From Clavelina lepadiformis (lineage: Eukaryota > Chordata > Ascidiacea > Aplousobranchia > Clavelinidae), in assembly GCF_947623445.1 (NCBI RefSeq), contig NC_135242.1:19840001-19904000 (forward strand): a stretch of DNA of 64,000 nucleotides, read 5' to 3'. Positions 8,801 through 64,000 of this stretch are shown here, piece by piece (the stretch's first letter is position 1; the number at the start of each line of letters is the position of its first letter). The position numbers were made by a program, and so were the translations under genes. A model generated the notes under the pieces. It searched no databases. It was not told where the DNA came from and worked only from the letters and a program-made list of their open reading frames with translations.

Positions 8801-10887
8801 CGTGGCATGGTCAGAATTCGCGTATGTTATTAAGTTGGATTAAAAACCTCAAACCACTTCCATATGTTGTTTATAAACGAATCGTCGAAAGAATTGTGTT
8901 TAGGATCAGGTTAGTGGTTCCACTTTTCCGTGAGCTGTGTTTCATATATAGATCTTGCGTTAAAGGAAATAACCGTTGCACAAGCCATGAACTTTCGGAT
9001 TAAATCATGAAAAAATTACGTCACAGAAATCGCGCGTGTTTCGTGCTGTACTGTATCTGCCCATATTAGTCATGCTGAGGCTTATCATAAGACTTCCATG
9101 CTCATTGCTCACATTCACCACAATTTAACCATTAGTTTCTTGGGCATGCTGCGATCAACATTTCCTGTAACTTGTCACGATTTTGAGATAAAACGGTTCC
9201 AGCCAAATGTCGCCTTTGACGCTCGTAAGACAATCACCACATTTACTCTTTATCGCTTTGCACTTATTGTAAGCGCCACTAGTTTTATGCACAACTCTTG
9301 CCGCGGATTTTTACACGATAATATATGTTTAGGGTCGTCAGAGAGACTCTCTTCCTGTCAAATGCGGCTCTTCACCTCTTTCTTCAAACCTGCCTGACGA
9401 AAAAAGAGATGGACGTGCTCCTTAAGGACGTCAAGAGGCGTGGCTCCATGGACAGCATCACCCGCGCCATCAAACGCTTCGGAAGCAGATCTCCTTCCAT
9501 TCCCGCAAATCTGTGCAACGTCGTATCCAGCCCCTTTGACAGCAATGACTCGGGTATGAACGAATCCAAGTCCACGCCGTCGTTTAACTACGAACACGGC
9601 TCCTGGATACACAAGTCCAACTCCTGGAGAAGATCGTACTCTCCTGCCGAGAGCTTCGGAACGCATCGATTTTCAGATTCGAGCTCCAATGCCAGCTACG
9701 ATAGCAGCGTCGGGTTCTCGGGGAATAACAACAGTTCATCTTCTAAAGATGGAGAGTGGGTGATAATAGAAACCCCACCTCCGTCACCCCGTGATATCTC
9801 TTTCGATGTGACGGATTCAGCATTTCCACCAAAGGACGATGTCAAATCATCCGATTTCACTCAAGTTACTTGGAACCTTGGAGACTCATGTCATCATAAA
9901 CTGAAGTCAAAGGGTCCCTCCTGGAACGAGTTTCGAATGTCAAAATTCATGCTCAGTAACTCGGTATCAATATCTGATAAGAGCAATTTGTCACCAATTC
10001 CTTACTTTAAGCCTCATAGTTTGGAAAGTGCGATTAACCATTTCTATACCAATCATGTCGACGGATCAGCACATTGCAAGCATTGTTTAAAAGTTAAAAA
10101 GACCTCTGATATGCGAAGAGCCTCCTCAGATACCAACATCCGAGATCTTCCACTGGATGAACCCAATTCCAATATATTTAATAGATCAACTGGAGACAAT
10201 GAGTCAATTTCAACTGTATCGTCTCCATTGCGATTGATAACTGATGTTGAAAGATCGGCTCCACTGGTATCTTTGGCGCCATCAACACCGGTTGCTGCTG
10301 TGAAGTCTTTGGAAGAAATTGAGGATTCACCGCATCGGGAGCAAAAGGAGAGCCCTGAGGTGAAGGCTGAAGTCACTTCTGATAACTTGCTGGAAGTTGA
10401 ATCAAAAGAGGTTCATATGGAAGAAAATACCACTCCTGAGAACCAAATTTACAATCTTCCTGTTACGGAAGAAAATGAAAAATCAACATCTGCATCGGAG
10501 CCAGCAAATCACAAATCCGATTCCAATAAAGAAGATGAAAAGAATGCATCATTTGAACAAAATACCATGTTGTTAACGGCCAATCTAGACTCAGTGCAAC
10601 TTAAGAAGGAAAGACGTACGTCTTTACCAATAGTGGCAAGCAAGCCAACACAGTCGATATTTCCCTCAAAATCTTATCCAAGTTTGTGGTCAACCGCGAT
10701 GAAAGACGAGTCCCTATCCACTACAGCAAACGGTCATGGCGCCAGCCTTGCTGGCTCTGTCGATTCCGGGATGGGGAGCACTTCAAGTAGCAACAGCTAC
10801 GTTATAAGGAATGGGAAAGTGGTGGTTGAAAAAGAACCTGCAGTGCTGGAAACAGCTGTCAGTGGTGCTGATAAAAGTAATTTGTAA
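5867..10887 (+). CDS. SNX10/SNX11-like sorting nexin with long disordered C-terminal tail (5' end not seen)
   Basis: Exons 5867-5953, 6215-6312, 8558-8653 and 9333-10887 join in phases 0, 2 and 2 to give 611 residues. The first about 130 form a PX domain: EYISVRVQNP, then SIVRRRYSDFTWLRKAL (the Arg-rich phosphoinositide-binding segment), KERQAILTAFLEK and LFLSNAALHLFLQTCLTKKE. The last two match the helices of the extended PX fold of SNX10/SNX11 (known from the family). Those proteins bind PI3P on endosomes, and SNX10 is tied to the V-ATPase. SNX10 and SNX11 have about 200-270 residues; this one adds about 470 Ser/Thr/Glu-rich residues with one CxxC pair (AHCKHC). The N-terminus is unsettled. 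An in-frame ATG at 5855 would add only MLLQ, but it lies inside a good acceptor (TTTTGCAG), so an upstream exon is more likely. Family call firm; SNX10 versus SNX11 orthology not decided. Confidence 0.87.
6313..8557 (+). other. 2.2 kb intron of the SNX10-like gene
   Basis: The phase-2 intron is bounded by GTAAGT at 6313 and TTTTTTCCAG ending at 8557. It holds a perfect cAMP-response-element octamer, TGACGTCA, at 7921-7928. I found no exon needed to complete the PX domain inside it, and no transposon. Confidence 0.6.
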
Positions 10888-19700: not shown

Positions 19701-22700
19701 ATGAACTTTTTTATGTGTATTTTGTAGTCTCAACTGCATGATTCCAACTTTACGCTGATGATAACATCAAACAGCTTGAATGATATTTTTTCTGATCTTC
19801 AAACGATTGTTTATTATAATAGCAGAACTTTCCCGACACCTGGAATTCGCAGTGTGTCAATAGAAACATCACTCGAGTATGGTTGTACACAAGTTTTTTT
19901 TTATCCTAAAAGCTGGTTGTGTAACGACCATTTCCTTTAAAATTTGGTTGAATTGCAATTGCTCAGGTTGTATTTGACAGCATGCGCGATAGGCCTAAAG
20001 TTTCTCCTCTGTCTTTACCTGTTTACCACAATATATTTGTTTATAAATCGAATAAAATATAAATTCTTAACAGTCATTGGTCAATAATTTTTTACTGTTT
20101 AATGTTTGACATCGTTTTGACAATGTTTTCATGTATCAACATTATTTGCAGATGTTTGCCAACTGCTCCAAAGTGCTCATACATCCCTCCACGGGAAACC
20201 TACATCAAAGTTCTTCCTCCTTCAGACCCTGTTATAACTCTGTCCGGAAGTCAACTCAAGTCCTTTCCTGAAAGTGATGTTCTCAGCCGCGAACTTTATC
20301 TTTTCGATGATATCAAAATAGTTTCAGAAGCAAAGAATAATTTGAAGCAAGGTTTGGATAATGTATTTGTGCTTGGTTTGGGTGCAAGGGAAGGCAAATT
20401 AGGCAACACCGGGAAGCTACAACTCTTGTCAGATTTTGCTTACTTGATAAGTTGTTTTACTTGTTTTAAGCAATTATACTGCTGAATTCCTTGAAAATCA
20501 TAAAAATCCATTGCCAAAGTAAGGATATAAGTTATTTCGCTTTTTTATGTCTGTGTTTATGTGCTCTTTGTGCTGATATATATTAATGTTTACATATTGG
20601 CAGGGTTGTTATCTCTAGAGATTGCTTAAATTAATTATAATTGTAAAGTTTTTATTAGTTATCTACTAGCACAGAGGTGGGCAAATTTGTTCAGTGAAAG
20701 AGTCACTTGCGGAAAACTACAAACAACAGCGAGCCGCAAAATCAGTAGTGTCAATACAAACATGGTAAACAATGCATGGATAATGAACAATAATGGATAT
20801 TACTATTCAGCTAGAAGAGCCACATTAAAACATGTCGGCGAGCCGCAGTTTGCCCACCTTTGTACAAGCAGTTACGTTTATGAACCTTGTGTCAGAGCCA
20901 CTGATTGAAGAAAAAAGGCACCGATTTGACATCAAAATGCTTAAACTTGCAGGTGATATTGTTCAGGAACAAAATCTTGATCGTTGCCTTGTGTTAGAAG
21001 TAGAAGGTGGCAATGGAAGCTGGGGAAAATTTAAAGCGAAGAAACGAAACCGCCTTGTTCAGAATGGTTTAATTTTAGAAAAACTTAAAAATGGAATTGC
21101 TATTCGAGGTAAAATATTATCCATTTTGCAAAGCTTAAGTGTCAAATATTTCACTGTCTGCATAAGTTTTTATTTTTAATTTGTTTATTGTGAAACATAT
21201 TAAACAAGTTTGTGTATTTCTTAGAAATTATTGAAAGGCTAATTGTTAATTCTTCACTAATGCTTGAATTTAACCGGACAAAACTCATTGGATTTTTTGA
21301 ATTTACTTTTACGACAACATAGTTCAATCATAAATTTAGAGTTAAAGCAGTCCTTTAAACAGCTTTGTGTAACAATGCTGTGCCTAAGAAAATTGTTGTT
21401 CATTGTTCTTTTACGCACAAAGCCTCTTTATTGTAATAGATTCTTATCTTACTAGGAATACAGAAGCTAGAAGTATATGAACAGATTCTACGAACAGTCG
21501 TCTATCAAAATCAACAGGCCAAGACCATCAATGACGTTATCTTTATTATTTCATGTTCAGAACTAAATGGTCGTTACCAAAGCAACCAGTTCCAGCTGAC
21601 GGTATTACATGTTTTTCAATAAATAATTAAAACTTCACGTAAAATTTTCAGTAGCTACCTATACTTTTTAAACTGATAGTTTGTGTTCAAACTTTTTACT
21701 GAGCACTCAATAAATGTACTTACTAATGCCAAGTATTTTTGTGTGATTTATTCCAACAGATGTTTCTGAAGTAAAACTACAATACTTTATCCTTTTGTCT
21801 TCCAGTTAACAGTATTTCATCCAAGTCCTCAGCTGATTCCTGCTGAGATTCCTCCGTTTCAGCCTAGAAAGGAGGCGCTTTCCGTGGCTCTGATGGCATC
21901 AGATGTTGGTGCTGTTAGACTGAACCCAGCAGGAGCAGAAACACCTGACAATATTGATGGCAACTTTATGACGAATGCTGAAGGAAGTAAATGAGTTAAT
22001 TGTCAGGATTATGATTTTTTTCAACAACTGATGGTTTTTTTAATAAATAAGCCACTAATTGCCTTTTGATTTTAGCATTACTTTGTAGAAGCATGTTTAT
22101 AATCACTTTAATTCTTTCCCTGCAAAGAACTTACAGTAAACGTCTTTTGCTATAACGATGAACAACATAACTTGGATTGTGTTATAACTGACTTAGCATA
22201 CCAAGCCGTCGCTATTAGTGCAACAAAATCAGGAATAATCATAACACTGTGAACAATAACAATGAGAATGATATTTTAAAACTTGTTTGTCAGTCTCACC
22301 AAGAAGCAGATATTCTACATAATAATGATAGTTTAATTAACAGAAGTAAACAAGAAAAACACCCAAAGAGCGTTTTTCTAGTTTAAAAACACTTCCGCCA
22401 TGGCAGCAGATTACTTCTGTGTGACATTTCTTCACTGAAATCCGAACTCTATTACGTGACTTTATATTATGTTAACATCTACTTTGTGGCATTCAATTAT
22501 TAACCCAACAATAAGAGATAAACTTATACCTTCTTGCTGACGACAGTAAAGGAAACGGATTCAAAAATATAAATTAACATCACTGCAGGTCACTACACAA
22601 CCACCACCGTGTCGGCAATAATCATTGCTGTCTGTGTTGCTTGCCTACTCATCCTAACCGTTGCTGCAATCCTCTACGTCAGACTTCACGGATACGTCAC

Positions 22701-23381
22701 TGGTATTGATGAGGAAGAGGAGGACATCGTTATGAACGAACATGTTGTTAAGGAAGTCCAAGAAGAAGAGCTGGACTGGGATGATTCGGCCATGATCATC
22801 ACCAGCAACCCAATGGAGGTATACTTTGACATTGAAACCCTGGTTACTTTGATGTGATAGTCAGTGATGCATAGGGCAGGTGTGTTGGTGCATGCCATAG
22901 GAACGGTGTCGCGTTAGTAGCAAAAACTAAAGGACGTTTGGGAAGAATCCGATCTATCATATCAGGAACAGGAGAGTTTATAAGTTTACATAAATGAATT
23001 TTGTGCTTTGACATCACATGAAGCTTAATATGTTATGTCAGTTAAAATCAAGGGAGGAATTAACACAAACCGCAGTAAGTTTATTTCTGTAAATTGCCAT
23101 AGTGTGTACTTTTGCTTGCGTCGCTAGGATCCCATTTGGTTCTGCCAGGTACTTGTTTTGTGATAGGTGGTATTTATAATCGTGGTATTTGTCTTCAGAA
23201 CGAGGATTTCATCGATGTGAGTGAAAGTGATTTTTCCGAGATTGAAGATGAAATCGCAAGTCAGTCTAGTTATTGTGACAATGAGCTTCAACGTCAGTCA
23301 ACATCACGCACGACAAAGTATCCCATCGTTGCTAAGCGTAGTGGACGTCTTCCTGATGATTTTTATGAATGGAAAGAATGA
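13735..23381 (+). CDS. CLSTN: Calsyntenin, type I membrane cadherin/LamG protein (18 exons, complete)
   Basis: Exons: 13735-13819, 13955-14077, 14301-14532, 14751-14965, 15471-15638, 16254-16454, 16971-17074, 17358-17565, 17797-17924, 18636-18795, 19149-19324, 19728-19876, 20152-20351, 20953-21108, 21456-21601, 21806-21986, 22589-22818, 23199-23381. They give 1014 residues (human CLSTN1 about 980), with every junction in phase. Order: signal peptide 1-21; two cadherin repeats (VVVLDSPLVAIDKDAP; VTAHDCG; VVDINNHDPYF); LamG-like region (GCDRDTYTLKDARRLCG; AEWHWKLDD; DDYPLQG; CVDQCKEGL); the stretch holding YYNSRTFPTPGIR and SCSELNGRYQSNQF; transmembrane helix about 886-908; then LDWDDSAMIITSNPME at 939-954, the W-acidic motif by which calsyntenins bind kinesin light chain (known). 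The tail is acidic. Calsyntenins act in axonal cargo transport and synapse organisation. Possible poly(A) signal ATTAAA at 23453-23458. Without the last splice, translation would end after about 13 more residues. Confidence 0.95.
20672..20862. mobile_element. Short non-autonomous hAT-like element (MITE), 191 bp, in calsyntenin intron 13
   Basis: The left end CAGAGGTGGGCAAAT and the right end GTTTGCCCACCTTTG are near-perfect inverted repeats. The flanks TACTAGCA (20664-20671) and TACAAGCA (20863-20870) form an 8 bp target duplication with one mismatch, the hAT signature. There is no transposase frame. The right end lies 90 bp before exon 14. It shares its ends and orientation with the element at 51259-51620. 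Confidence 0.9.
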
Positions 23382-28670: not shown

Positions 28671-29843
28671 CTACACCCAATCCTTTGGTTCTTTTAGAAC
28701 TTTCAAGAGTTTATATTCTTGGGAACCTAGCTTTGGTGTATGCATGTACTCCCATCTTGCAGTAAGTGGCAAAGACATCAATATGCTTTCAATTCTAGCT
28801 CCTGGAGTTTGAAAGCCAAACTTTGTTCCTCGATCATAAATTAGATTAAATTCCACGTAACGACCACGTCTAAGCTGTTGCCACTGTTTGTTTTCGGGAG
28901 TAAATGATTTGTGCTTGTTTTTGGCTATTATAGGAATGTAGCTTGGAATAACTGACTCTGCACATGACTTGACAAAAGCAAAAGCCGAATCAGCATCAGG
29001 ACCTTCAACGTCATCAAAGAAAATACCACCCACACCCCGGCGCTCTCCCCGAATTGGAATCGTAAAATATTCATCACACCATTTTTTGTATTTTGGATAT
29101 AAATCATTTCCATGTTTGTTGCATGCTTTCTTCAGCTCTGAATGAAAATGCCTAACATCATTTTCATCCAAATACATCGGGGTTAAATCTGTGCCCCCTC
29201 CAAACCACCAAGTCTTTTCACCATCGGCACTGGTCACTTCGAAATAGCGATAGTTAAAGTGTACAGTTGGACAATATGGATTGGTAGGATGTACGACTGA
29301 ACTTACACCCATTGCCACAAAAGGTAACGTTCCATCGTCGTGCCGCACAAAGTTACGACCCCTGCTTCTCATTTGTTTTTCAGCTCCTTCACTAAGACTT
29401 CCGTGAACAACCGAAACATTGACACCAGCTTTTTCAAACACTTCACCATCTTGCAAAACACAAGTCACACCACCACCAGTATTGTTGTCTTTGCTCCATT
29501 TGTCGACAATAAACTTCTTGTCACCTCCTTCCAAGGCTTCTATTGCTCTACAAACACTGGCTTGTATTTCCATAATAAGCAGTTCCATTTTGGTAGCAGT
29601 AGATGTAGGACATTTTAGAAGATTTTCGATGCTCGTTACCGGAGCAGCCATAAAAGAAATGGACACTGGAGAACGTTCTTCCTTACATGATAAACAGGTC
29701 ACCTGCTGGCTAAACTTTATAAAGTTTAGCTTCACTTTTGACGATGTCAAGTCATAGCCGGCATAAACACATCCGCCTACAGCAGTTATGCAACCTATAT
29801 ATTTAGATTTATTTCCTAAACTACGTATTGCTCTAGACCACAT
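28671..29843 (-). CDS. CPOX: Coproporphyrinogen III oxidase, oxygen-dependent, mitochondrial (intronless coding region)
   Basis: One uninterrupted frame of 390 residues. The enzyme turns coproporphyrinogen III into protoporphyrinogen IX in the mitochondrial intermembrane space, the antepenultimate step of haem synthesis. Strong blocks: [158 protein letters not shown] and a C-terminal KDWV. The N-terminal about 60 residues are basic then hydrophobic, as expected for an import leader. The in-frame ATG seven codons upstream (29864) straddles an acceptor-like TGCAG ending at 29857, so the ATG at 29843 is preferred. Animal CPOX genes usually have several introns; here none interrupts the coding region. 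Confidence 0.97.
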
Positions 29844-30014
29844 TTTGAGCTCTTTGCTGCACATAAATATTAAATTTCATTAATAAAATTCAACTCAAAG
29901 TAATCATCATAGAAACATAATACTTACTGCTATTTCCTATACGTAAATTACAGATATCCAGCAATAATTACTTTCCTTTGCGTAATTAAAATCAGTTGTA
30001 TAATAAGCCTATAT

Positions 30015-32967: not shown

Positions 32968-34014
32968 ATTCGAGTTAAGTTGGCATGGGGATGTCAAAAA
33001 TTCAGTTTTTTTCCTGTGTGACAGTAACGGTTTTCGTTGGTAAAATACGTTGCAATCACAGCAATGTGTAAGAAACTTGTGAATATGACGACCACATCTA
33101 GACGTAGAAGCAACAGCAGGTCAACAGAATGAATCACACAACTATTGCAACATCACTCGGAAACAGGTTGGCGACCTCTCTGTTTACACAGTTGTAAGTA
33201 TGCCCCGTCACGATTACAAGGGTTTAAAATTTCATGGTTGATCGAAGCCGAGGTAAATTGCGACTTTGTCTTTTACTACCTTTGCAGATGTTTCGGTTTA
33301 CGCTTAAAAGCATTCAATGAAGTGTTAAGTTCACAAAGGCGAAACCGGGTAAGTTGGCAAAATAGCCGGGTACGTTCGCCTGCAGACTCTTGCTTCACAT
33401 TTTGTTGCTTTAAAAGTAAGGTCGTGTTTCAACAACGTGACTCGGCAAACGACAATAAAGTGAAAGAGAAATTGTGAGGATGCTCTTTCAGAGAAATAGA
33501 GTTGCTCAGTGTGAAGAGAGAGGGTTACTGCGCGGGTAAGGTTTGTCGTGCAATATATTTAATCGGTTACTTCAGCAGTGACGAAGGAAGGACCATGCGT
33601 TCAGCTACAATAGGTGACAAGTTCGTATGCGCTTAACGCGTTGAAGATACTGATTTGGTATAATTTTTCAAAGTGTTGTTTAGAAAATCTGTGGCATTAA
33701 TGGTAACATACAGGTTTGGTTGTATGGGCAAGAAGCAACGTATCATTTATCATACGCCTGACGCATTTATCACTTCCTTCCTCTTTCTGTACTCTCTACA
33801 AAACCACTCTTCAACTACTGTACATGTAGTGGCGTACAGTAGTTGTTGTATTCTTAGCGAAACTGGGAAATAAATTCATCTAAAACAAGAAAAAATATTT
33901 TCGTTTTTAGGTAACTTGACTCATCTGGCATTTCAGCAATAAACAAAGTCTTCTGCTAACTTTGTTAATAGTTTATATTTTTTTGTACTTCTGGACAGCT
34001 AGGGCGTTTGGAAT

Positions 34015-35459
34015 ATGAACATATATAGTCCTGGAAAGGTATTCCCTTTAGTAATGGCAAGTAAACCTGCTACCACTCTCAAAGGCCATAAAAAGGCTTG
34101 TAATGGGAAGAAAAAATTTTTCAAAAGAGGTAAATCTTTGCTTGGTCCCTTGCCAGACTTATCTTTCGGACCAAAAGCTTTAACTCGGCAAGATTTTGCT
34201 CGAGATTATGTCTTAGATCCTGAAAATCAAACTTTAAAGTGGTCACGTCCACCGGAAAACATTCTTATTATTAAAAAGAATGATGCAGCAATCATACCGG
34301 CTTTCATTGCATTGGCAAATTGGTTGATAAATGACAAAAGTTTGAACATTTTTGTTGAGGAAGCAGTTTTGAAAGAAAAACTGTTAAAGGTCAATGAAGA
34401 TCTCAAAGAAAACTACACCAAGTTGAAGAAGTACGAACATAGCAACAGCACCAAGAATGGCTGCGACACAATTGATTTGATCATCACCATTGGTGGCGAT
34501 GGCACTTTGCTTTATGCAGCATCACTATTCCAAAGTAGCATGCCTCCTGTCATTGCCTTCCATTGTGGTTCCTTAGGTTTTCTGACTGTTCATGAGCTGA
34601 CTTCTTACAAAGAAACAATTTCAAATGTTTTCCTTGGCAATGCTGGGTTGATGTTGCGAAGTCGACTTAGGTGTATGATACAGAGGTGAGTTTTAAATGT
34701 TTCTGTGCATTAATTTCAACCATATGAACAGTATTGCAAAGCATGGTACATACCCGAAGAGGGTTATATATATATATATATATATATGCTTAAGCCAGCT
34801 TTAATCCTCTTCTGGAAAAAACTTATCTTGTGTTCGTATTTTAATCAACGTTTTCATTTTACAGAAAAGGAGAGATTGAAGATGTAATCCATAAATCTCC
34901 CAGTTATAATGGAATTGTTGACTTGACCGACATAAATATCAAAGGCAACGGTGAAAGTTGTCACCCTTCCTTCTTAGTGTTGAATGAAGTTGTGGTAAAT
35001 AGAGGCCAGAGTCAGTTTATTTGCAACATAGACCTTTATTTAGAGGGGCGGAGAATCACGTCCGTACAAGGTGATGGCCTTATAATATCTACCCCGACTG
35101 GAAGTACAGGTTATGCAGTTGCTGCAGGGGCCTCTATGGTACACCCGAATGTCCCTGCCATCATGGTCACCCCAATTTGCCCACATTCGTTATCCTTTAG
35201 ACCAATCATTGTCCCACCTGGGGCGGAACTTAAATTCGCTCTGTCTGAAAATGCGCGGGGTCCTGCCTCTGTTTCTTTCGATGGCAAAGGTACGACTGAA
35301 ATCTTTCCTGGTGATTATGTCACCATTCGAACATCAGTCCACCCAGCTCCTTGTGTTTGTAAAAATAATCCATTTGATGACTGGTTTGACTCCCTAAGTC
35401 GATGCCTGCACTGGAACTCAAGACAGAGTCAGAAGCAACTTGATCCTATTCCAGATTAA
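34015..35459 (+). CDS. NADK: NAD kinase (NAD+ to NADP+), 2 coding exons
   Basis: Exons 34015-34685 and 34865-35459 join in phase 2 to give 421 residues. The enzyme phosphorylates NAD+ with ATP to NADP+ in the cytosol. Signature motifs: LDPENQTLKWSRPPENILII, the conserved entry to the fold in animal NADKs; the catalytic GGDGTLLYAA loop at 160-169; FHCGSLGFLT; LRSRLRC; LNEVVVNRG; DGLIISTPTGSTGY, the second kinase motif, at 295-307 (here GSTGY where GSTAY is usual); SLSFRPIIVP; and SFDGKG. Length and order match cytosolic NADK. An in-frame TAG lies 15 bases upstream of the chosen ATG, so the frame cannot extend further within this exon. A second Met (MASKPATT) is a possible alternative start. 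A possible poly(A) signal AATAAA is at 35939-35944. Confidence 0.96.
34765..34788. repeat. (TA)n microsatellite in the NADK intron
   Basis: A clean run of alternating TA, about 12 units, inside the 179 bp intron between the two NADK coding exons. Confidence 0.9.
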
Positions 35460-37519: not shown

Positions 37520-40500
37520 TTAATCAGCAGTTTTAAGTCTTCCTGCACGTGTCCTATCAGCCCATGGAAGCTCATCATTATATTCTGCTAATAAAGCGGC
37601 CTCATCTCTAGGGGTGTTAGGGGGGTTTTGCGGTACATCAGGGGTCTTTTTTAAGTCCGCCTTGGCAATGCTTACAAGGCTACCGAAAGGATCATACGGC
37701 GGAGGGGGCTGAGAATCTTGTAATATTTTGTCGTTCATTCCGATGACGTCCGCTGGCTCTTCATGCTCCACAGCCGGGATCCGATACATCGGAGCGAAGC
37801 GTGGGACATCGACGCTTGAACATGGGTCATCTGGAATATAGTGACCATCTTTCTGGTGCAGATCATCCAAGAGCTCACTCGCCTTTTCTTCGCCATAATA
37901 CTCGGCGCTGTCACTTGATTCCGAAGTATCGGTTTCATCACTCAAGTATTGATTTAGTGGCAAACTTTCTTCGACGTTTGGTTTCTTTAGCCCTGACAAA
38001 AAAGTTTTGGTATTCACAGCATTAACAGGAAAAAGTTGCGACAAATAGTGCTAAAATGTTTTGCACTAAACTTTATTTTTTTAAATCTAATAAAGACAAG
38101 TTGACTTGGCACCTTGTAATGCGGCCAGCTTGCTCTTTAGCTGTTCCTGTTCACTGTATGCAGATTCAAGTACACTTTCAACAGAGCGAAGTTTTCCGAC
38201 GGTCTCCTCAAGGCTGCGCACCATTTCTTGCCCAGTATCTCTACAGTTTTACAAGAGTAATATATATGACTGTACAAACATTTCAGCGGACATGTAAATC
38301 CAATAGTGTCAATATTTTGTAAACAATACTTATTGTGTTACGTATTATTATACTACTTATAATGCTTAAGCATAAACGTTCTTGTTGTTGTAAAATTGGT
38401 GCAAATGCCTTGATAGGAAAATTGGTGAAATATTTAGTCCATTCTGTAAAAACTAACATTGCAACCATGAAAATTCAATTTTCATTACAAATACAAATTA
38501 CAACTTGTTTTTACCTCACTGCTTCCACCATGTGGAAGGAACAGTTGCTGTTATTGGTCATAAAGGAGGCATTAAGTGAAGATAAAGCTTTCGTAGCTTG
38601 TGGTAATCTCTGCTGTTGGTGTATCGTGGGATATGGTTTGTATACTCCACATGTTGTGGCTTTTAAATTGACAATTTCCATTGGACATGGAATAAACCAC
38701 CTGAAGATATTTGAAAACAAACAGTTACGCTTGGCCATTGATTAACAACAAGATTAAAATGCAACTTCCGCTTACATACCATAGTTATTAAAGCTTCTGT
38801 AAGGCTACTTCTGTTTAAACGTGTGAAAAACTTTAAACCTTTTCAGCTACTTTGTTGGGCAAAAACAGTAAATACATTATACAACTAAAATGATTCTATA
38901 TTGACATATGTAGTTTTATCATCATATGTGAATTTCAGTAAGAAAAGTAATGAAAAACATTTGTAGTCTGGCATTCCTTAAAGCCAGCTTAACTAACTAT
39001 CTTGCAATTCATAGCGCTCTACGAATTTATGTAAATGGTCATTTTGAAAGGGTTTGGTTAATTGTATACCCTTCCCTAAGGAGTAAAAACTTGTCAGTTT
39101 TTCTTGCCAAATTCGAAAAACTTATATCCTTTAAATCTATTACATGACATTAACAATGCTTGTACCCTATCAGTGGTTCTGGTGAACAGTTCCTAATTCG
39201 AGCAAAACCACAATAACTGAATAATAACTATTTCCATCAGAAAAGCTGAATAATTGAAGTTCCATTGAGTGGTGAGATATCATGACGAAATTGTGTAAAC
39301 ACCCTTCCCAGTTTGAGTATAAATATTTTGTTACCGGTGTAATCAACGACCCAATGACCTTATTGTGTAACAAATGCTATATATAGATATATAGCACATA
39401 CATTAAAAGAAATAGACGGACGGATGTACTATAATAGAATCTTCCACAAAAAATTAACATACCTTTCTCTCAATACAAAAGCGGCAAATTTCCATAAATA
39501 CAAAGACTGGTTTTCTGTCCACCTTTCGTGAATCAAAATTGTCACAACTTGAGATGAAAAGTCAGTAGTTTCAGTGGTTGTGTCTTGTTGATATAACTTT
39601 TTTTCCAATTTGCGATGTACTGACTACAAAGAATTTGATGTTATGACATTCAAAAAATATTTTTTGTTAAACAAGTAGCATTACTGCACAAGTATAACAA
39701 CTGAGCAATAAAATGTAAATATATCGCTAGTATTGTATACATCAGTAGATATCATATAGCTATGAAGTTGTATAATGCAGCACATTGTAAGTAGCACAGA
39801 TACATGTGTTAATTCTTGCAAATCATATCCAACATATACCAGTAAACAAGTTCCTTACAGCATAGACAAGTTAGACATCCATAACAAATAATAAAGGAAA
39901 GACCGATCACCAACATATACCTTTTCATGAACTGTCAAACGAAGCACAGGCCTTCTGCAGAATTTAAACCAACCATAGACTTTTCCATTTGAACATTCAA
40001 TGGTTTCATCCTTATTTAGCTCATTTAAACATGGAAGTGCTCCAATGGTATGGATTGCTGAAACATAACAGAATTAAACTTTCAACTTTTCTTATACGTA
40101 TACATTTAAAATTTAATTTCAAAAAGTGTCACACCATCACCAAGAAAATATCATTTGTCAATTTATATTCGTATCATAAGATGAACGAAAAACACTGATG
40201 GTAAATGGGAAAGTTATGCAATTTTCATTGCATTTAGTTGAGAAAACATGAAAACCAACTTTCTATAAATATATATGATATTATATATCCACGAAACCTA
40301 GGGACCAAACCAATTTGACCAATGGCGGTGATACCAGAAAGCTCACAAAAACAGAAGCCACTACAACTGAACTTGGATAGGCACTGTTAGCCATAAATTG
40401 CCAATTAACCATTTGTAGCTCAGCTGCCTATATTAAATTTATTGATATTTATTTGTTATATATTGACTATGTATTTTGTCAAAAAATTTAACTCCATCAC

Positions 40501-49859: not shown

Positions 49860-52800
49860 ATGAATTTCAACGATTCTCTTCCGCGTGTTCTAACCACCCC
49901 TAAACTCCATCGGCGCCCGCAGGTTGATATCACCGCCAACTCGCCAGAGCTTCAAAAGCATAGATGGCCGCCAATCGACATTACCAAGGACGCGTCTGGT
50001 GATTTTTTCGTCATCGAAACGACTGCGAATATTCAAGAAAAGAGTCGAGTGGATCATAATGGACATCTGGTAAATGAAGAAACGCAGTTGCCATTATCGC
50101 CGGCCAACGGTGTGTCCGCTGCCTGTGCGGCGATGGCCAATGCATGTAGTCACGACCATGATTACATTTCCAGCGACTCCTCTCGTTTGGGAAGATTAAA
50201 TCCGGATGTGGCTAGCGCAAGTCGCCCAGCATCGCCATCGAAACTTTTTGAGGATTCGGTGCCACGAGTTCGTCTGGAGATTAAAACGGTTCGGGTTCCT
50301 GTACCACCCAAGTCACACGCACCAACCTCACCCCGGGACGCGAAACCGGCGAGGACAACCGGTAACAAATTGATAAGGAGATACATACGACCTGATGACG
50401 TCACCGAAACGCGAAGAGGACGGCCGAGCAAAACACAAGAGCCACATGAGATCATCGACAATAAATGTGTTTTTGTCAGCACGCGGAAAACAGCGGAATC
50501 GACCCCAGGTCGCGTAAGTGCCGGTCGTAGACGGAACAGGAAGAAAGCGACACCCGACTTCGTTACTGCGCAAGAACAATCCAGAAAAACAACATCTTTT
50601 GCATCCGACGTAGCAGGAGTAGCAGTGAAGGAAGAAATATCTGTAAATAATGACGAAAAGTTTGACCTGTCGAATGATATTCTCACGAAGGAATGGCTGA
50701 AAATGGTTCAGCGGTATCGAACTGAAAAGAGACAAAACGACGAGGGGCCAGATGATGCTGAAACTGAAAATTTTGGAAAACCTCTGCGTGAATCCACACC
50801 TGTAAGAAACGCTAAAAGTAGTGATGCAAATACAGAACTGAAATTTCTCTCACCGCGTCGAAGCGTAACGCCATGCCCACCTAATCTCTCAAAAACAGAA
50901 ATGAAATCCAAAAGCGGGGAACTGAACGATTCCAACGTAGTCGGTGACGATTCCGCATATTTTTCCATTACGTCATCAGTGTGCAGCAGACCGACCAGTA
51001 GTGCTGGCATGCCAACCTTCCGGGCAGGGTCCGAGAGTCGACCCCCGACGGGAGGACGCCCTCAGTCCGGAGAAAAACGTGTTGCAGCAACTAGTCTCTC
51101 TTCTTCTTCATCTTGTACTGCTTCCAGTGATGATGATTCAGAATTTGGCAGCATGACGTCTCCAAAAAGTGATCTTGGCGATGTCGAAAATTGTCGAACT
51201 TCGGGCGAAAGAGTAACGTCTTCAGGGAATTCACAGTAAGATATATAATAATCTATAACAGAGGTGGGCAAATGTATTCAATGGAAGAGCCATTTGCAGA
51301 AAATACAAGTACCAGAGAGCCTCAAAATTATTTCAATACAAAGACGGTTAATACTGCATTAGCATTAGATGTCATCGTTTTCGTTTTGCAGTGTATTTAA
51401 GTAAACTAAACTGAGCTAAACCTTACTGTCTTAGCAATGAAATTGCGTTGACTTGCTGTTAACTAACTCTTCGGATTCTATGTCTGTTGTTACGTCATAA
51501 ACGAATTCCTGACCTAAATAAAGAAAAGAAAAAAAGAGAAACGTTCATAAACAATACTCTTGGTAGCCTTTACAATTTTTTTGGAATTTTACGATTCGAC
51601 TAGAAGTTTGCCCACCACTAATCTATAAATATTACGGTATTTCCCTACTGGTATTCTTTGTGATTAGTTTTTATTGCATTATTTAACCCTTATCAAAATA
51701 AAGTATTGGAAAAATATCTGATTGCGTTTTTCATTTCTTTACATCTTCTGCCAACTATTAAGATGTGGGAGTGGCGGTTCCTGTAAAGATCAACGAGCTG
51801 TAAAATCTAGAAAAGGCAAGAAGATAGTTCGACAAATTGACGTCAACTGTGCCAAAAAAGCAATTACCAAACCTCAGATGCGCCCTATGCCACCACGGAA
51901 ACCTAAGAAAGGTTTGTTTTTGCACGGTTGTTTAACAAACCAGAATGTTGTGCAATATAATTTAGCATCGTAAGATCATGGTTGAAACCTGCAAAAGCTT
52001 GGTGACAGTAATTCAATCTAATACAGATCCACTCCCAATGCATTTACGAGCGCTGCCGAACTCATTCTTTCAAGAACCTAATAGGGTAAGCCCTTCGCCA
52101 TACAGCGTTTTACCGCCGGTACAACCTCTGTTTCGACAAGTTTCAACCGACGACATAGCTGGTGAGTGAGGATGCATATCCACGGTTTATATGTAAATTT
52201 GTATCTGCAGTCCTTGTGCCATGCACTGATCACTGAATACAAAATGGTATTGGATACCAATGCTGATTATAAGCTCTATTTAACCTAAAGTAGGCTTTCG
52301 TAATGACTTTTGAGGATTTGTTAAATGCCGTTGCAAAACAGTGTCTTTGACGAGGGTAAACATTTGTCAAATATTACAGACGTGAGGCCCGTCACACCTC
52401 CTTCAAAAGAAGACACTTCAACTACTTCAAGCATGAAACGTGGTGCAAAAATCATCACAACGGGAGATATCGAACTACTACAGCGGCTCTTTGATGCTGT
52501 GGAACCGCAAAACAAGGCGACTGGTATTAGGATCAAACGAGGAAGGTAGGTTGATTGGAAGGTTATAGATAAAGTTTCGATTTGACCCAGAACAGGCTTT
52601 CATTTTAGAAATTACATTAATTGTATGTCATTTTCTTCGTTTGTTGGTTTTTGTATTTACCATCGTATATGGTGTTAATAGGCTCCTTTTTCAGGTAAAT
52701 TTTCTTTATGATTTCTTCTTTGTTATGCATAGGCCTAAGAGGACGCCGAAATTGATGCCGTCACCCCGCTTGAAGCTGGACAACAACCCGTGTATAATGC

Positions 52801-53183
52801 AGTCAATCACGGAGAAACTCTTCCCTAAACTAACCATTGACCGCCGTCGTGTGAACTCAATGCGCACAGCAAACGTTACGGGTTTGGTGTCGACTACTCA
52901 GCCCGCGGCTTTTATCGGCGACGTTCAGTCTCTAAATACGAATTTTAACAACAATGCCCAAGACCTGGACAGCACTTATCTAAGAGATTGGTCATCATCT
53001 GGGCTCCTGTCGACCAAATCAAGCTTTACAAGCGTTTATGATGACGACAAGGATTTTCCAGAAGTTTCGATGGAAACTAGGTCGCCTACACCGCAACGTC
53101 TTGAAACTTTAGCGCTTCCTCTTTTAACGGGTACCCAGCAGGATTACTCGCAGATGTTGTCAGAGGTGGCTGCGGTTCTTTGA
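49860..53183 (+). CDS. Disordered protein with two AT-hook-like motifs, family not recognised (5 exons)
   Basis: Exons 49860-51235, 51763-51911, 52009-52161, 52380-52545 and 52733-53183 join in phases 2, 1, 1 and 2 to give 764 residues. The first 460 are Ser/Pro/Arg-rich and probably unfolded. RRGRPSK at 185-191 and KRGRPKR at 612-618 match the AT-hook core (GRP flanked by basic residues) that binds the minor groove of AT-rich DNA. The second is split by the last intron. Exons 2-5 carry the most conserved-looking part: NCAKKAITKPQMRPMPPRKP, DPLPMHLRALPNSFFQEPN, YSVLPPVQPLF, DVRPVTPPSKED and IELLQRLFDAVE. I cannot name a family for this set. A nuclear, DNA-linked role is only inferred. The start is the first in-frame ATG after a stop; a GTG-led extension is not used. 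The first intron carries a hAT MITE. Confidence 0.8.
51259..51620. mobile_element. Non-autonomous hAT-like element, 362 bp, in intron 1 of the AT-hook gene
   Basis: The left end is CAGAGGTGGGCAAATG and the right end TTTGCCCACCACTA. ATCTATAA at 51251-51258 and at 51621-51628 is a perfect 8 bp target duplication. Both the end sequence and the following TTCAATGGAAGAGCCATTTG resemble the 191 bp element at 20672, so they are one family with different internal lengths. No transposase frame. It starts 23 bp after the exon 1 donor. Confidence 0.95.
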
Positions 53184-54942
53184 GCTTCTGAAAACACGCA
53201 ACTAATCTGGTACGTTTAAGCAACCGGCTCTGCAACATGCTGTTTTTTCGCTCGTGTAAGAACTTCAGGGAGTCTTATGGTGTCTTGCAGCCTACTTTGC
53301 TCTGGAATCGATGAGGAATATAAACGTTATGCTGTTAAACTTTTTTCCCCAGAAACGCCTTTCAAGTACGTTTTTCCCTTCACTAGTTGCTGCCTTGGCC
53401 GAAATTTGCCTGGTCATCCGAAGCTACACCACAGTAATTAACTAATAGTCAACCGAATTTGCTGGGATGTTATGATGTTATTGACTGCAAATTGTGTAAC
53501 CTCGCTTACTTTAAGCCGAGGATTGTACATCGTTCAAAGTTCCGTTTATTGGCCAAATTTTCAAGTTGCTTGACCACAATATTTGTCTGCTTAAGTTTAC
53601 CTATTTTTCATACCGCCGTCACTGTGGATTACATTATAATAACGACTGTGAAAACATTCTTTCGTTTGTAATTTAGCTTTAAACGTTTTTTGCTATTTTC
53701 TACCAGCAATCTGCTCTCTTAAGGTACTGTATATAGTGAAATGGTTTATAACTAACACACTCATTTCGTATGTCTACAAACTCACATTAAATATAATGTA
53801 TTGCATTAAAACGGCTTGCTTCACATTTTCAAAAAATGTTTGTTGTAAATGTGTGGTTGTCAAAAGAGCTTCATAAAATAGCTGGATGTGAACAGATATG
53901 GCTTGCATGTCAAGCTCTGCGGTTTTAAATATCTTGTAGACTGCAGTATTGTGTGTCTATTATATTAAAGTGCTTTTTGAGCATTCCATTTAGACATGTT
54001 ACGCGTTGAAAATGTTTACTGTTTTGACAATATTTTTATTATTTTCCTGTGATCGCATTGTCCTATACTTTTAATCAACTGTTTTCAATACAGCTGGAAC
54101 ACGTATTGGCGTAATGTATCGCAACTGACGTACAAAAATGGAGATTTGGTGCAGCGTTGAAGAAGCATTGCCAGATCTGCAAAGTGTTAGTTTAATATTT
54201 GTTCTAGGGTTAAAATCAGCAAAAAGTGATTTGCGTTACATAGCAGCTACTAGATAGTGACTATTTAGTCATTCAATCAATTTAACGACTAACATATGAT
54301 CACATAGCCTCATACCTTCGTTTTTTCCCTAGCAACATTTGAACCACTTCGGGCGCTCAACAAAAGCTTAAGAAGAGTCAGTCGTTCTTGTTTTTTGTTG
54401 TAAAATTTTAACCGCTTCGAGGCACTTACTGAGCCTACTGATTGTGACGTACTTTCTCGTCTGAAAGAAGAAAAAAACACGAAGGTTACAAACAACTTCA
54501 CGCTTCAGATATTTGAACCCTTGAGGCAAAACAAACTGTTTTAGCTAGTCTAAAGCCGAGATGGAAAAGACTGCTTATTATCGGCAAGGGTGTGGCAGGT
54601 AGATTGCATGATCAAGTTACGGTTTTAATGCAGAAAGTATTGTCCTGTTATAACTGAATACACTTAACTACTGTGGCAGGTTTTGTTTTTATTCTGTAAC
54701 TGTTAATATCTGATAGGAAAGAGTAGTGTCTTGACTCACTTCATACAGGCTACCACAAGTGATTGTCTTTCAAGCAGAAGGAAGCTTGTCACAGTTTCAG
54801 GATTTGGTGGAATTAGGATGTTCTTATGTGTTATTTTCTTGGAAATTATAGTAACCCTCAGCACAACGACGTTTAAATTTATGTCGTAAAACATTTTTTA
54901 GGCGTAGTTTTTTTGATAGGCATCTAACAACTGTGTAGAAAA
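53184..54942. other. Intergenic between the AT-hook gene and the four-pass protein gene
   Basis: Holds the 3'UTR of the AT-hook gene and the promoter and 5'UTR of the next gene on the same strand. No coding exon or repeat is supported. Acceptor-like sequences TTTTTGATAG (near 54918) and TGTGTAG (near 54938) precede the next ATG within about 25 bp. Confidence 0.5.
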
Positions 54943-55880
54943 ATGAACACGACAGATAATATTGGCCATCTCATTGTTATATCAGTTCTTGTTTTTTTGT
55001 CTTTTGTTTTCGCTATCATCGCAGTTGCCTCTGATGGTTGGAGCAGTGCACTTCCAGTGCCCCTCTTGAATCATTACAACTCTAGAGCGCCTGGTGTCGA
55101 ACAAAGAGCTCACTGTGAGTGGTTTCCTAATAAATTACATTGGCTTTGTAACTTTCAAAACAAAGTGTTGGTCGGCGTAATAAGGTAGTGGCGATGCGTT
55201 ATTTGTGAACAATATACCGGCTGGATTTTGGTTAAAGATAACTACCTCTTAAGCGATACGCTGTATAAAACTGTGATGCATATCTATACTTTTTGCTACC
55301 GGAATTCTTAATATTACCTCTCTTGTAGGCTACTGTTCAACCATTTTTCGTGGTACGATTTTGTTGTTTTAATTCGGATGTTTGTTGCTATAGCAGGCTA
55401 TTCTATGTTTCTGGCTACTTAAATCTGTTTTGTATACACAGTATGGATTGTCGGATGTGTAGTGCTCACCATTCTTGGTATTCTCTGCTTGTGCATATCT
55501 GCCATCATACTTCTGGCTCGATTCTTTAACCACGGAAAAGGCAGAGCGGCATTAGGTGGAGTTCTTAGCATATTTGCAGGTAAGACAAGCTTAAGGTTTG
55601 ATTTAAGCTACTGTACAATGGAACCAAAAGTGTACCTTAAGAATTCATCCATTTCGGCATGAGACAAGCTATGCTAAACATAGGTAATAATAATTAATTT
55701 AAAGCGTGTATTAAACGTTACTTTCAAGGTGTAATGTTTCTTGTCACACAAATCATCTTCATGGTGCAACAGCGACCTCAAGACGTGTACTACGGATATA
55801 GCTTCGCCCTCGAGTGGGTGGCTATTCCATTTGCTTGGTTTGGGGGTGGCGCTTTTTTCGCCCTAAAGGCAAGCGATTGA
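54943..55880 (+). CDS. Small four-pass membrane protein (tetraspan, PMP22/claudin/MARVEL-like size)
   Basis: Exons 54943-55114, 55442-55579 and 55729-55880 join in phases 1 and 1 to give 153 residues. Four hydrophobic helices can be read: about 9-30 (VISVLVFLSFVFAIIAVASD), 58-84 (IVGCVVLTILGILCLCISAI), 94-114 (VLSIFAGVMFLVTQIIFMVQ) and 127-149 (LEWVAIPFAWFGGGAFFALK). The first loop has about 28 residues and contains DGWSS. The claudin/PMP22 signature W-GLW-C-C is absent, so membership in that superfamily is not shown. Length and topology also suit MARVEL proteins. The donor of exon 1 (CACTGTGAGTGG) is strong; reading on without splicing adds a Cys/Trp-rich segment that ends at a stop at 55188. 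ATTAAA at 55880+400 (56281-56286) could be its poly(A) signal. Confidence 0.7.
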
Positions 55881-61300: not shown

Positions 61301-63127
61301 TATTAGGTAAACTCATTCGTGACGAAAAAGTGTGTAGGCGTGGATTGTAAAAATTTTTAAGTTCTATAGTCTATACGATGGAAGACAATCAATTCTACTA
61401 AATAAGTGCAACGACCATATTGAGCGCTGTGTTTCGTTCCACAGACCCAACGTAAGCAAAACTTCTACAGTTAACAAGAGTGCACTACCAAGAAAAAGGT
61501 ATAGCGATACACAGACAATAATAATTGCTCAACAAACAAGTATAAATCTCGAAATTGTAGACAGCTCAACATTAAACCAATTTAGAACCACTTCAAGGGT
61601 TTGCAGCAATGGACTGCGCAACGTTAAGCGACGCAGACAACTATAATCCTATTTGATGTTTTCATGGCAATCCTGTTTTTGTTAATTTGGCAAAACACAA
61701 CTCAATCCAATCCACTATCTATAGAACACTTGAATCGGCTCAGGATTGACTGACCCAGTCGAATTTTTATTCACTGCAAAAATCATCTACGTTTAACTAG
61801 GCTTATATTTGACAAACATTAATTATAGATTGACATAAGCAAGTAGCACAATACTTGTCTTTAGCGCAAGGGGCATTTTTTACTGCTCGCTTTAAGCGTT
61901 TTGAAACTTTTTTGCTGCGTTAAAAATTTATACTTAAGAATGTCTACAGAACACAACAAATTTGGACCAAAGACTCAAAGATCCTTAATAGACCGGTGAT
62001 TTAATGTCAGCGAATTGAAATCTAGATTGCGAAAAGTTGAAGTGTTTTTATCGGCAAAGGAAACCGCGTGGAAAGTCGCAAACGTTCTTGTAAATAAACC
62101 TACACGCTGCAATCTTTGACTCCTATTGGACACAGTAGACACGCTAGAAATTTATCGACCAATCAGACGTCGGTTTACTCTAGGGCAAACCTGCCATATG
62201 ATCAACCACAGTGACATCACAATGGTAAACGTATGGCGGTAAACAAAGAGTTCTTGGAAGGAAGTTCAACACGCTTCAGTTGATTTGTGAAAACAGAATT
62301 CACGGTTCTACACCACAAAGAAGTTCTGCAATGGGGCCCTGGTTTTCAAAAAATGAAGACAACGAAACCGATGTGTTTTGTGTTGCGCAATTCCGTTGCG
62401 ATATCCGCTGTAAATCTGTTACGAATGATTTCAGACGGTGTGGCGAAATATTTTCAAAAATTACACACTGCTGAAAAGGTTAAGATATTCGCAAAATAAA
62501 GTAAATAATCGATATTTACTTGGCCATTGTTGAAAGAGCTGGTTACGTAAAAGGTTAAAGTTTCACCATCGACAACAAATTTACCTTACATTTCTGTTAA
62601 AGTGGTAGTTAAGTTCATGTAAACGAATGGGGCAAACAAATATTGTGAACCTGCAGAAAATGGACTAATTACAAAGAATTTAAATTCGAGTTATAAATCA
62701 TTAAGGAAAAGTTCGTTCTTGATAAGGACATCGCTTGTACAACTGTCATGCAATCGATTTCAACGCGGTTACAGTATGTGCAGGAGACGAACTTACAACA
62801 AATCAAGTCAACCTTGGTTAAATGAGCAACCACGAAAAAACGAGCGCCTCAACAAAACACTTTTCTAATTAACCCACAAGATAAAAGAATGTGTGCTGAA
62901 GGATGTAACACTAGTAGAGCAAGTTTCTCGACGTCAACTTACGTCATGTTAAGCAACCGCAAATGGAAAATAAAAACCTGTAATTACTTCGATTTCAAAA
63001 TTGCACCTTGAGAATGGTATGTTTGCATTGTAAAGACAAATTTACGGCAAACAATCTAAATCCCATCATTCAACTTGCAACCCTGCACAGTTCTCATGTT
63101 CACAGTTCAGAGGTTTAGCTACACGCC

Positions 63128-63167
<40 letters not shown>

Positions 63168-63427
63168 TACATACTTGTTTTCCGCTCGACAATGATATAA
63201 CCCCTTCGTGTCCGGCGTGGAGTTTGGAAGGGTTAGTCTGGAGAATACCACGTCATCTTGATTTGAAACTTCATCAAACGCGCCTTCCATTGTAATGGGG
63301 TAGTCATTTTTTAACCAAGTTATGGTGGGTAGGGGATCTCCGGTAGCTTTACATTTGAGCAAGACTGCCTGTCCCACCGGAACCCGCATGGAGGAAACCG
63401 GGGATACCGTGATTGTTGGTGCTTTCC
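58320..63427 (-). CDS. Ig + 12-cysteine region + three EGF-like repeats, secreted or surface protein (partial, both ends open)
   Basis: Minus-strand exons 63427-63175, 60879-60781, 60565-60368, 60245-60010, 58804-58703 and 58553-58320 join in phases 2, 2, 2, 1 and 1. Order: an I-set Ig domain (PVGQAVLLKCKATGDPLPTI, TWLKND, KGLYHCRAENK); a region with about 12 cysteines (DVAACKDPTKQ, CQGRWKGPIKRATKQLCAKG, WHVCG, LQGCYAYDAA, GIGRDCGH, TTGVMCCLK); a basic linker (KTKKSKGKR); one EGF (DCNCENGGICKRRYKCKCPP); a second (KCTQPCGPNSHCSRNGVCKC); a basic spacer; and a third (VRCQNGGQCKRGNCVCPP). Each EGF has six cysteines. The first exon starts in phase 1, so at least one 5' exon, with the signal peptide, lies upstream, probably beyond the window. 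No membrane helix is seen in these exons. Ligand, matrix or receptor roles are all possible; I cannot name the family of the middle region. Confidence 0.82.
58805..60009 (-). other. 1.2 kb intron of the Ig-EGF gene
   Basis: The intron between the last exon of the cysteine-rich region and the first EGF exon. It is AT-rich with no supported feature. Confidence 0.5.
60880..63174 (-). other. 2.3 kb intron of the Ig-EGF gene after the Ig exon
   Basis: It separates the Ig exon from the cysteine-rich region and begins, on the transcript strand, with a (GT)n microsatellite. I saw no further domain exon; overlapping plus-strand open frames at 62280-62499 have no recognisable domain. Confidence 0.5.
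63131..63165. repeat. (AC)n microsatellite, (GT)n on the transcript strand
   Basis: About 17 uninterrupted AC units. On the minus strand this is a (GU)n tract beginning about 10 bases after the 5' splice site of the Ig exon (GTATGTATC at 63174-63166). Confidence 0.95.
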
Positions 63428-64000
63428 CTAAACACAAAAATAATTAACGTTTGAGATCAAATCATTAATTTCAATGATACGCAAAGTTTGAATCGGCGTC
63501 GTTCTTGTACGGACAATGGCAGGTTGTGTTCGCCACAGTCAAGACCTTACAATAACATGCTTTCCGAGAAATATTACGGAACAATTCTATCACTAAATTT
63601 GTACATTTTCGATGGTTTTGATAACAACATAAGCACAAGTTTTAAACGTGTCTTTTCTTACATAATAACCTTTTATTGGTTTACACAGGAGTCAGATAAA
63701 ATACCAAATTTGACCTATCCCATTTAATCTTATGGGTCGAACATACGGTAGCTTTAATTTAGAATGGCCTACGGGGCGTTCTGTTGCCTCGTGGTAAATC
63801 TTACAAAGTGCAACTTTATTTAGTAAATCCGATTTGAGCCGGCGATAATGATTTTCCTGCAAAAGTTAACATCATTAACAAAGTGCAAAGTCTAGCTGCG
63901 CAAAAGCCAAAAAACGTTTTTTAGATAATAATCGGATGATTTACTCCATTTAAGGAAAACTATTATTTATCTGCAACATCCTTGATAACAATTGAACTGT
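63428..64000. other. Right edge: intron or upstream sequence of the Ig-EGF gene
   Basis: The Ig exon has an acceptor (TTTGTGTTTAG) at 63428, so this stretch is intron at its left part. I could not find a convincing signal-peptide exon on the minus strand before the window ends. Confidence 0.45.

Follow-up and report, generated by a model that had tools for sequence, protein, structure and literature searches.

The window analysed here is a stretch of 64,000 nucleotides of chromosome 3 of the ascidian Clavelina lepadiformis (contig NC_135242.1, positions 19,840,001 to 19,904,000 of the forward strand), and all coordinates without a contig name refer to it. A gene of five exons, encoding 758 residues, extends on the forward strand from an ATG at 49860 to the end of a stop codon at 53183. 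Both ends had been placed correctly in the initial annotation, whose product of 764 residues gives way to the 758 residues of the spliced sequence. The features of the gene are as follows.

49860..51235, forward strand: exon 1 (aa 1-458), rich in serine, proline and arginine; reads as disordered
51763..51911, forward strand: exon 2 (aa 459-508), basic
52027..52161, forward strand: exon 3 (aa 509-553), with the omega loop inside
52032..52079, forward strand: omega loop LPMHLRALPNSFFQEP (aa 511-526), Pfam TEADIR3, corresponding to TEAD interface 3
52380..52545, forward strand: exon 4 (aa 554-608), with IELLQRLFDAVE inside
52478..52501, forward strand: predicted helix of LxxLF type, LQRLFDAV (aa 587-594), candidate interface 2
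52733..53183, forward strand: exon 5 (aa 609-758), with the stop codon at 53181-53183

All four introns are bounded by GT and AG, and the reading frame is kept throughout. The G+C content of the exons is 44-49%, as against 36% for the window. Exon 1 contains the basic stretch RRRNRKK (aa 223-229), and the C-terminal part of the protein is acidic, with net -6 over aa 661-720. The gene is real and has this five-exon structure. A wrong model, for example one with a false join or one that misses extra upstream exons, is most improbable, although the 5' end is loose: the reading frame of exon 1 continues without a stop for 54 bases upstream of the ATG, as far as 49806, and the best-scoring stretch between 38742 and the gene in a codon scan reaches 7.8, about level with the true exons 2 and 3 (7.7 and 7.6, respectively). 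A short upstream exon may thus exist. Against an error in the model stand the codon score of 120 for exon 1 and the rank of the frame used, which is the best of the three in each of the five exons; these scores come from a training set of five stretches elsewhere in the window, and Pfam gives no support to two of them. A search of the genome (209,060,895 bases in 95 contigs) with fragments of the gene gave three matches, all of them its own exons, and no paralogue was found. Among viral contigs, 19 stretches fit the pattern searched for and none was confirmed as a relative.

Several other features are seen in the same window.

9322-10884, forward strand: serine-rich open frame of 521 residues, disordered-looking, no Pfam match at E 0.01
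20063-20482 and 22573-22854, forward strand: matches to the Calsyntenin C-terminal model, the former below the cut-off of 27 (23.4 bits) and the latter above it (31.7 bits)
28674-29876, reverse strand: coproporphyrinogen III oxidase in one open frame (PF01218, 448.7 bits, profile positions 1-295 of 295)
34003-34686 and 34845-35456, forward strand: N- and C-terminal domains of NAD kinase in two open stretches
37523-38050, reverse strand: acidic, proline-rich open frame of 176 residues, no Pfam match at E 0.01
54928-55185, forward strand: open stretch that by eye resembles the start of a claudin-type membrane protein, no Pfam match at E 0.01
63069-63443, reverse strand: exon with an immunoglobulin domain (PF13927, 59.6 bits)

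The main feature of the protein is a block in exon 3. The initial annotation had pointed to four strings as conserved rather than random, all of which can be read in exons 3 and 4, and had been unable to assign the protein to a known family. The former judgement was right and the latter can be replaced, as the block matches above the cut-off the Pfam family TEADIR3 (PF15238: omega loop, TEAD interacting region 3) and is a TEAD-binding omega loop. The profile spans the loop from end to end (16 of 16 positions); against a cut-off of 26 bits, it scores 26.9 over the complete protein and 32.6 over a segment of 38 residues. The loop obeys PxxxRxLPxSFFxxP at every fixed position, as none of 5000 shuffled sequences does; this consensus is described as common to PERCC1, FAM181B and YAP/TAZ (PMC9710580). 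Its alignment with the loop of the animal's own YAP scores 58, a value that no shuffle reaches (0/5000; best 38), and S521 is aligned with S94 of YAP. Besides TEADIR3, no further Pfam domain exceeds its cut-off in the 758-residue protein; the matches to PF08926 (DUF1908), of 12.6 and 16.9 bits, stay below its cut-off of 27.5 and were put down to composition. Since the block is a TEAD-binding omega loop, the protein is to be regarded first as a candidate transcription cofactor.

TEADIR3 finds six places in the whole genome at E <=10, and three of them lie above the cut-off. The present gene (31.8 bits) is accompanied by a YAP locus on contig C7 (31.7 bits), which has an interface-2 helix, an omega loop and a WW domain, and by another locus on C7, whose loop is of Vestigial type and scores 25.6 bits alone and 26.2 bits with its neighbours in frame, with a Tondu domain about 1.1 kb off on the same strand. 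The other two places above the cut-off are YAP and VGLL, and therefore belong to known kinds of TEAD cofactor. The weak matches on contigs C2, C3 and C8 (15.8-16.9 bits) were taken as chance. In control genomes, TEADIR3 has matches in 7 of 14 and none above the cut-off in any of the 14. The only two places in the genome that match Tondu (PF07545) are both on C7, at 8660531 on the reverse strand and at 8668873 on the forward strand; from their positions, 8 kb apart on opposite strands, they perhaps mark two neighbouring VGLL genes. It is the one at 8660531 that has the Vestigial-type loop about 1.1 kb away.

A profile of these three loops retrieves 17 sequences from the PDB at E <=10. Thirteen of them are FAM181A, Vestigial, YAP (one match being named Yorkie homolog) and TAZ, with E values from 2.3e-6 to 0.19, and the other four have E values of 1.5-7.5. 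FAM181A is the best match. The entries of the 13 cofactor matches recur among those containing chains of TEAD or Scalloped. When the loop region is used as a single sequence, YAP comes eighth (E 0.51), with seven of the nine listed sequences above it; these seven, among them beta-lactamase (E 0.07) and CusA (E 0.43), leave the core of the loop uncovered and were taken as chance, and by itself this search is no proof.

One TEAD locus was found in the genome. TEA-domain matches occur only at C1:8850993-8854580, in two exons, and the YAP-binding domain (YBD) lies downstream in three exons at C1:8856069-8857842, the last of which was recognised by eye. The joined three-exon YBD matches TEF-1 (TEAD1) with an E value of 1e-80. 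The residues of the pocket for the omega loop are kept, at positions that we take to be E263, D272, K297, W299 and Y429 of TEAD4. D272 of TEAD has been reported as the salt-bridge partner of the arginine in the VGLL2 loop (PMC7566471).

It is less clear whether TEAD would be contacted at a second point. An LxxLF occurs just once in the protein, within IELLQRLFDAVE (aa 587-591). It follows the loop, from which 60 residues (aa 527-586) separate it, whereas in the animal's own YAP the LxxLF comes before the loop. LxxLF is given as the mark of the interface-2 helix of YAP/TAZ (PMC10146773). Interfaces 2 and 3 are described as consecutive in FAM181B and PERCC1 (PMC9710580), although another report has both FAM181A and FAM181B without the helix and is thus in conflict with the former on FAM181B (PMC10146773). 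No interface-2 motif is found upstream of the loop in the present protein, and nine LxxLF strings in the forward frames between 38742 and the gene are all outside the coding-scored stretches, in a scan that is blind to short exons. AlphaFold2, applied to exon 4 alone without an alignment, predicts one helix at aa 581-598, with mean pLDDT values of 80 (aa 574-583), 85 (aa 584-593) and 59 (aa 594-603), and 71.7 overall with a pTM of 0.31. From this prediction, a helix at the LxxLF site is plausible, and its contact with TEAD is a guess. LPPVQPLF, which also follows the loop, was rejected as a helix because of its internal proline.

The chances are about even that the LxxLF at aa 587 is fortuitous and that TEAD would be bound by the omega loop alone. 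LxxLF arises by chance in 8% of the shuffles (421 of 5000), and the BLOSUM62 score of the site against the helix of the animal's own YAP is 11, below both the mean best score of the shuffles (16.2) and that of an unrelated site in the same protein (18). On the other hand, two shuffles out of 5000 contain the longer pattern LxxLF[ND]xV, which was picked after seeing the site, and the segment comes out as helical in the prediction. Isolated omega loops are reported to be weak binders of TEAD, with IC50 values of about 98 uM for YAP 85-99 and 133-160 uM for VGLL2 and Vg (PMC7566471), and the affinity might therefore be low if the protein has no second contact. If the order of omega loop and then LxxLF is upheld, it would be new.

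Two AT-hook-like motifs, RRGRPSK and KRGRPKR, each with a GRP core and basic flanks, had been noted in the initial annotation, and both are present, at aa 185-191 in exon 1 and at aa 606-612, respectively. It takes the join of exons 4 and 5 to create the second core, and an unspliced six-frame scan of the window finds [RK]GRP only at 50415. A third GRP, at aa 399 (GGRPQ), is without a basic flank. The Pfam model AT_hook (PF02178, cut-off 17.4) scores 8.2 bits over the complete sequence, reaches 13.3 bits when the first segment is taken alone, and has no match in the second segment. By their sequence, the two cores may be real hooks. The earlier proposal of a chromatin-linked protein holds in so far as such hooks would make the link possible, and it is weakened by these sub-threshold scores and by the unmatched second segment. 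A protein that acts on chromatin through AT-hooks, with its omega-loop-like block serving something else, would explain the two [RK]GRP cores, which are rarer than chance (at least two in 2 of 5000 shuffles); it is nevertheless improbable, because the match to TEADIR3 is both strong and specific, whereas that to AT_hook falls below the cut-off. We also regard as rather doubtful a combination of both features in one protein, in which a TEAD-binding domain with reversed elements plus AT-hooks would grip TEAD together with AT-rich DNA nearby.

As to ancestry, the 758 residues contain no Pfam match to WW, which is present in the animal's own YAP, or to Tondu, and neither a PPxY nor a LATS motif was found in them. 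Because of this, the protein belongs to neither YAP/TAZ nor VGLL, and control by the Hippo kinases via the YAP route is therefore not indicated. FAM181 and PERCC1 are both described as having invertebrate members (PMC9710580), which makes an ancestry in one of these two families the likeliest. More precisely, the protein might be a fast-evolving tunicate orthologue of FAM181 (or PERCC1) that shares their omega loop and in which the interface-2 motif before the loop either has been lost or is missing, as it is from FAM181A. The prospect of this falls just short of even. The mechanism would be the same as in the explanation that we prefer, and the ancestry alone would differ. Besides the reach of the two families into invertebrates, such orthology is favoured by the fact that this gene is the sole candidate found, the other loops above the cut-off being YAP and VGLL and no paralogue having been detected, and by the first rank of FAM181A among the PDB sequences that the profile of the three loops retrieves, since FAM181A is reported to bind TEAD through interface 3 only (PMC10146773). 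What speaks against it is that a loop of 16 residues is too short to settle orthology and that it is the only Pfam domain above cut-off. Among the matches listed in the open-licence literature, no title or start of an abstract deals with a tunicate FAM181/PERCC1 protein or with an AT-hook protein having a TEAD omega loop, and the words tunicate, Ciona, urochordate and AT-hook are all absent from the main text of PMC9710580.

Taken together, the sequence features suggest that this is probably a disordered nuclear protein that binds the Clavelina TEAD by the omega loop at aa 511-526, in competition with YAP and Vestigial/VGLL2. It would probably give the sea squirt another kind of TEAD partner, the third beside YAP and the Vestigial-like proteins, and a nuclear role is likely. 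The omega loop would dock in the TEAD pocket that is used by YAP and Vestigial/VGLL2, and, as the pocket is shared, this docking would shut the loops of YAP and VGLL out of the same TEAD molecule. The protein would thereby bring its own disordered regions to TEAD-bound enhancers, perhaps with weak contacts of the AT-hooks to the DNA there. The basic and AT-hook-like segments may hold it in the nucleus near DNA, and the LxxLF helix, 60 residues further on, may give a second contact at interface 2. More speculatively, the acidic C-terminal part could recruit co-regulators.

If this is true, the protein would, beside YAP and VGLL, supply a third omega-loop input to the one TEAD that was found, and the three would compete for this output of Hippo signalling. 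Vertebrates and tunicates are sister groups, and the protein is a candidate tunicate relative of FAM181 and PERCC1. FAM181 has been linked to nervous-system development. PERCC1 is associated with congenital diarrhoea (PMC9710580). A reversed order, if true, would show the arrangement of the TEAD-binding elements to be changeable, a point of relevance to how they may be joined in the design of inhibitors. The puzzle left by the initial annotation is largely solved, the conserved block being a known TEAD-binding loop and the reversed order being the unusual feature.

The protein resembles several known systems in part. With YAP/TAZ/Yorkie it shares the omega loop, in which 12 of 20 residues are identical to those of the animal's own YAP, but it is without the upstream interface-2 helix, the WW domain and the LATS motif, and the true YAP is encoded on C7. 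It is like Vestigial/VGLL2 in the omega loop and unlike them in that no Tondu was found in it. Two GRP cores with basic flanks are reminiscent of AT-hook proteins of the HMGA type, although here they remain below the Pfam cut-off. FAM181A and FAM181B have an omega loop of the same consensus and, like them, this protein shows neither WW nor Tondu, whereas LxxLF after the loop and the AT-hook-like motifs set it apart; FAM181 is also conserved in its N-terminal region (in human FAM181B, aa 59-106), and the comparison with it covered the loop, the domains and the motifs. PERCC1 likewise has conserved N- and C-terminal regions, and the comparison with it covered the two motifs. Both LxxLF and PxxxRxLPxSFFxxP are described in PERCC1, where interface 2 is followed by interface 3 (PMC9710580), whereas in the Clavelina protein interface 3 comes before LxxLF.
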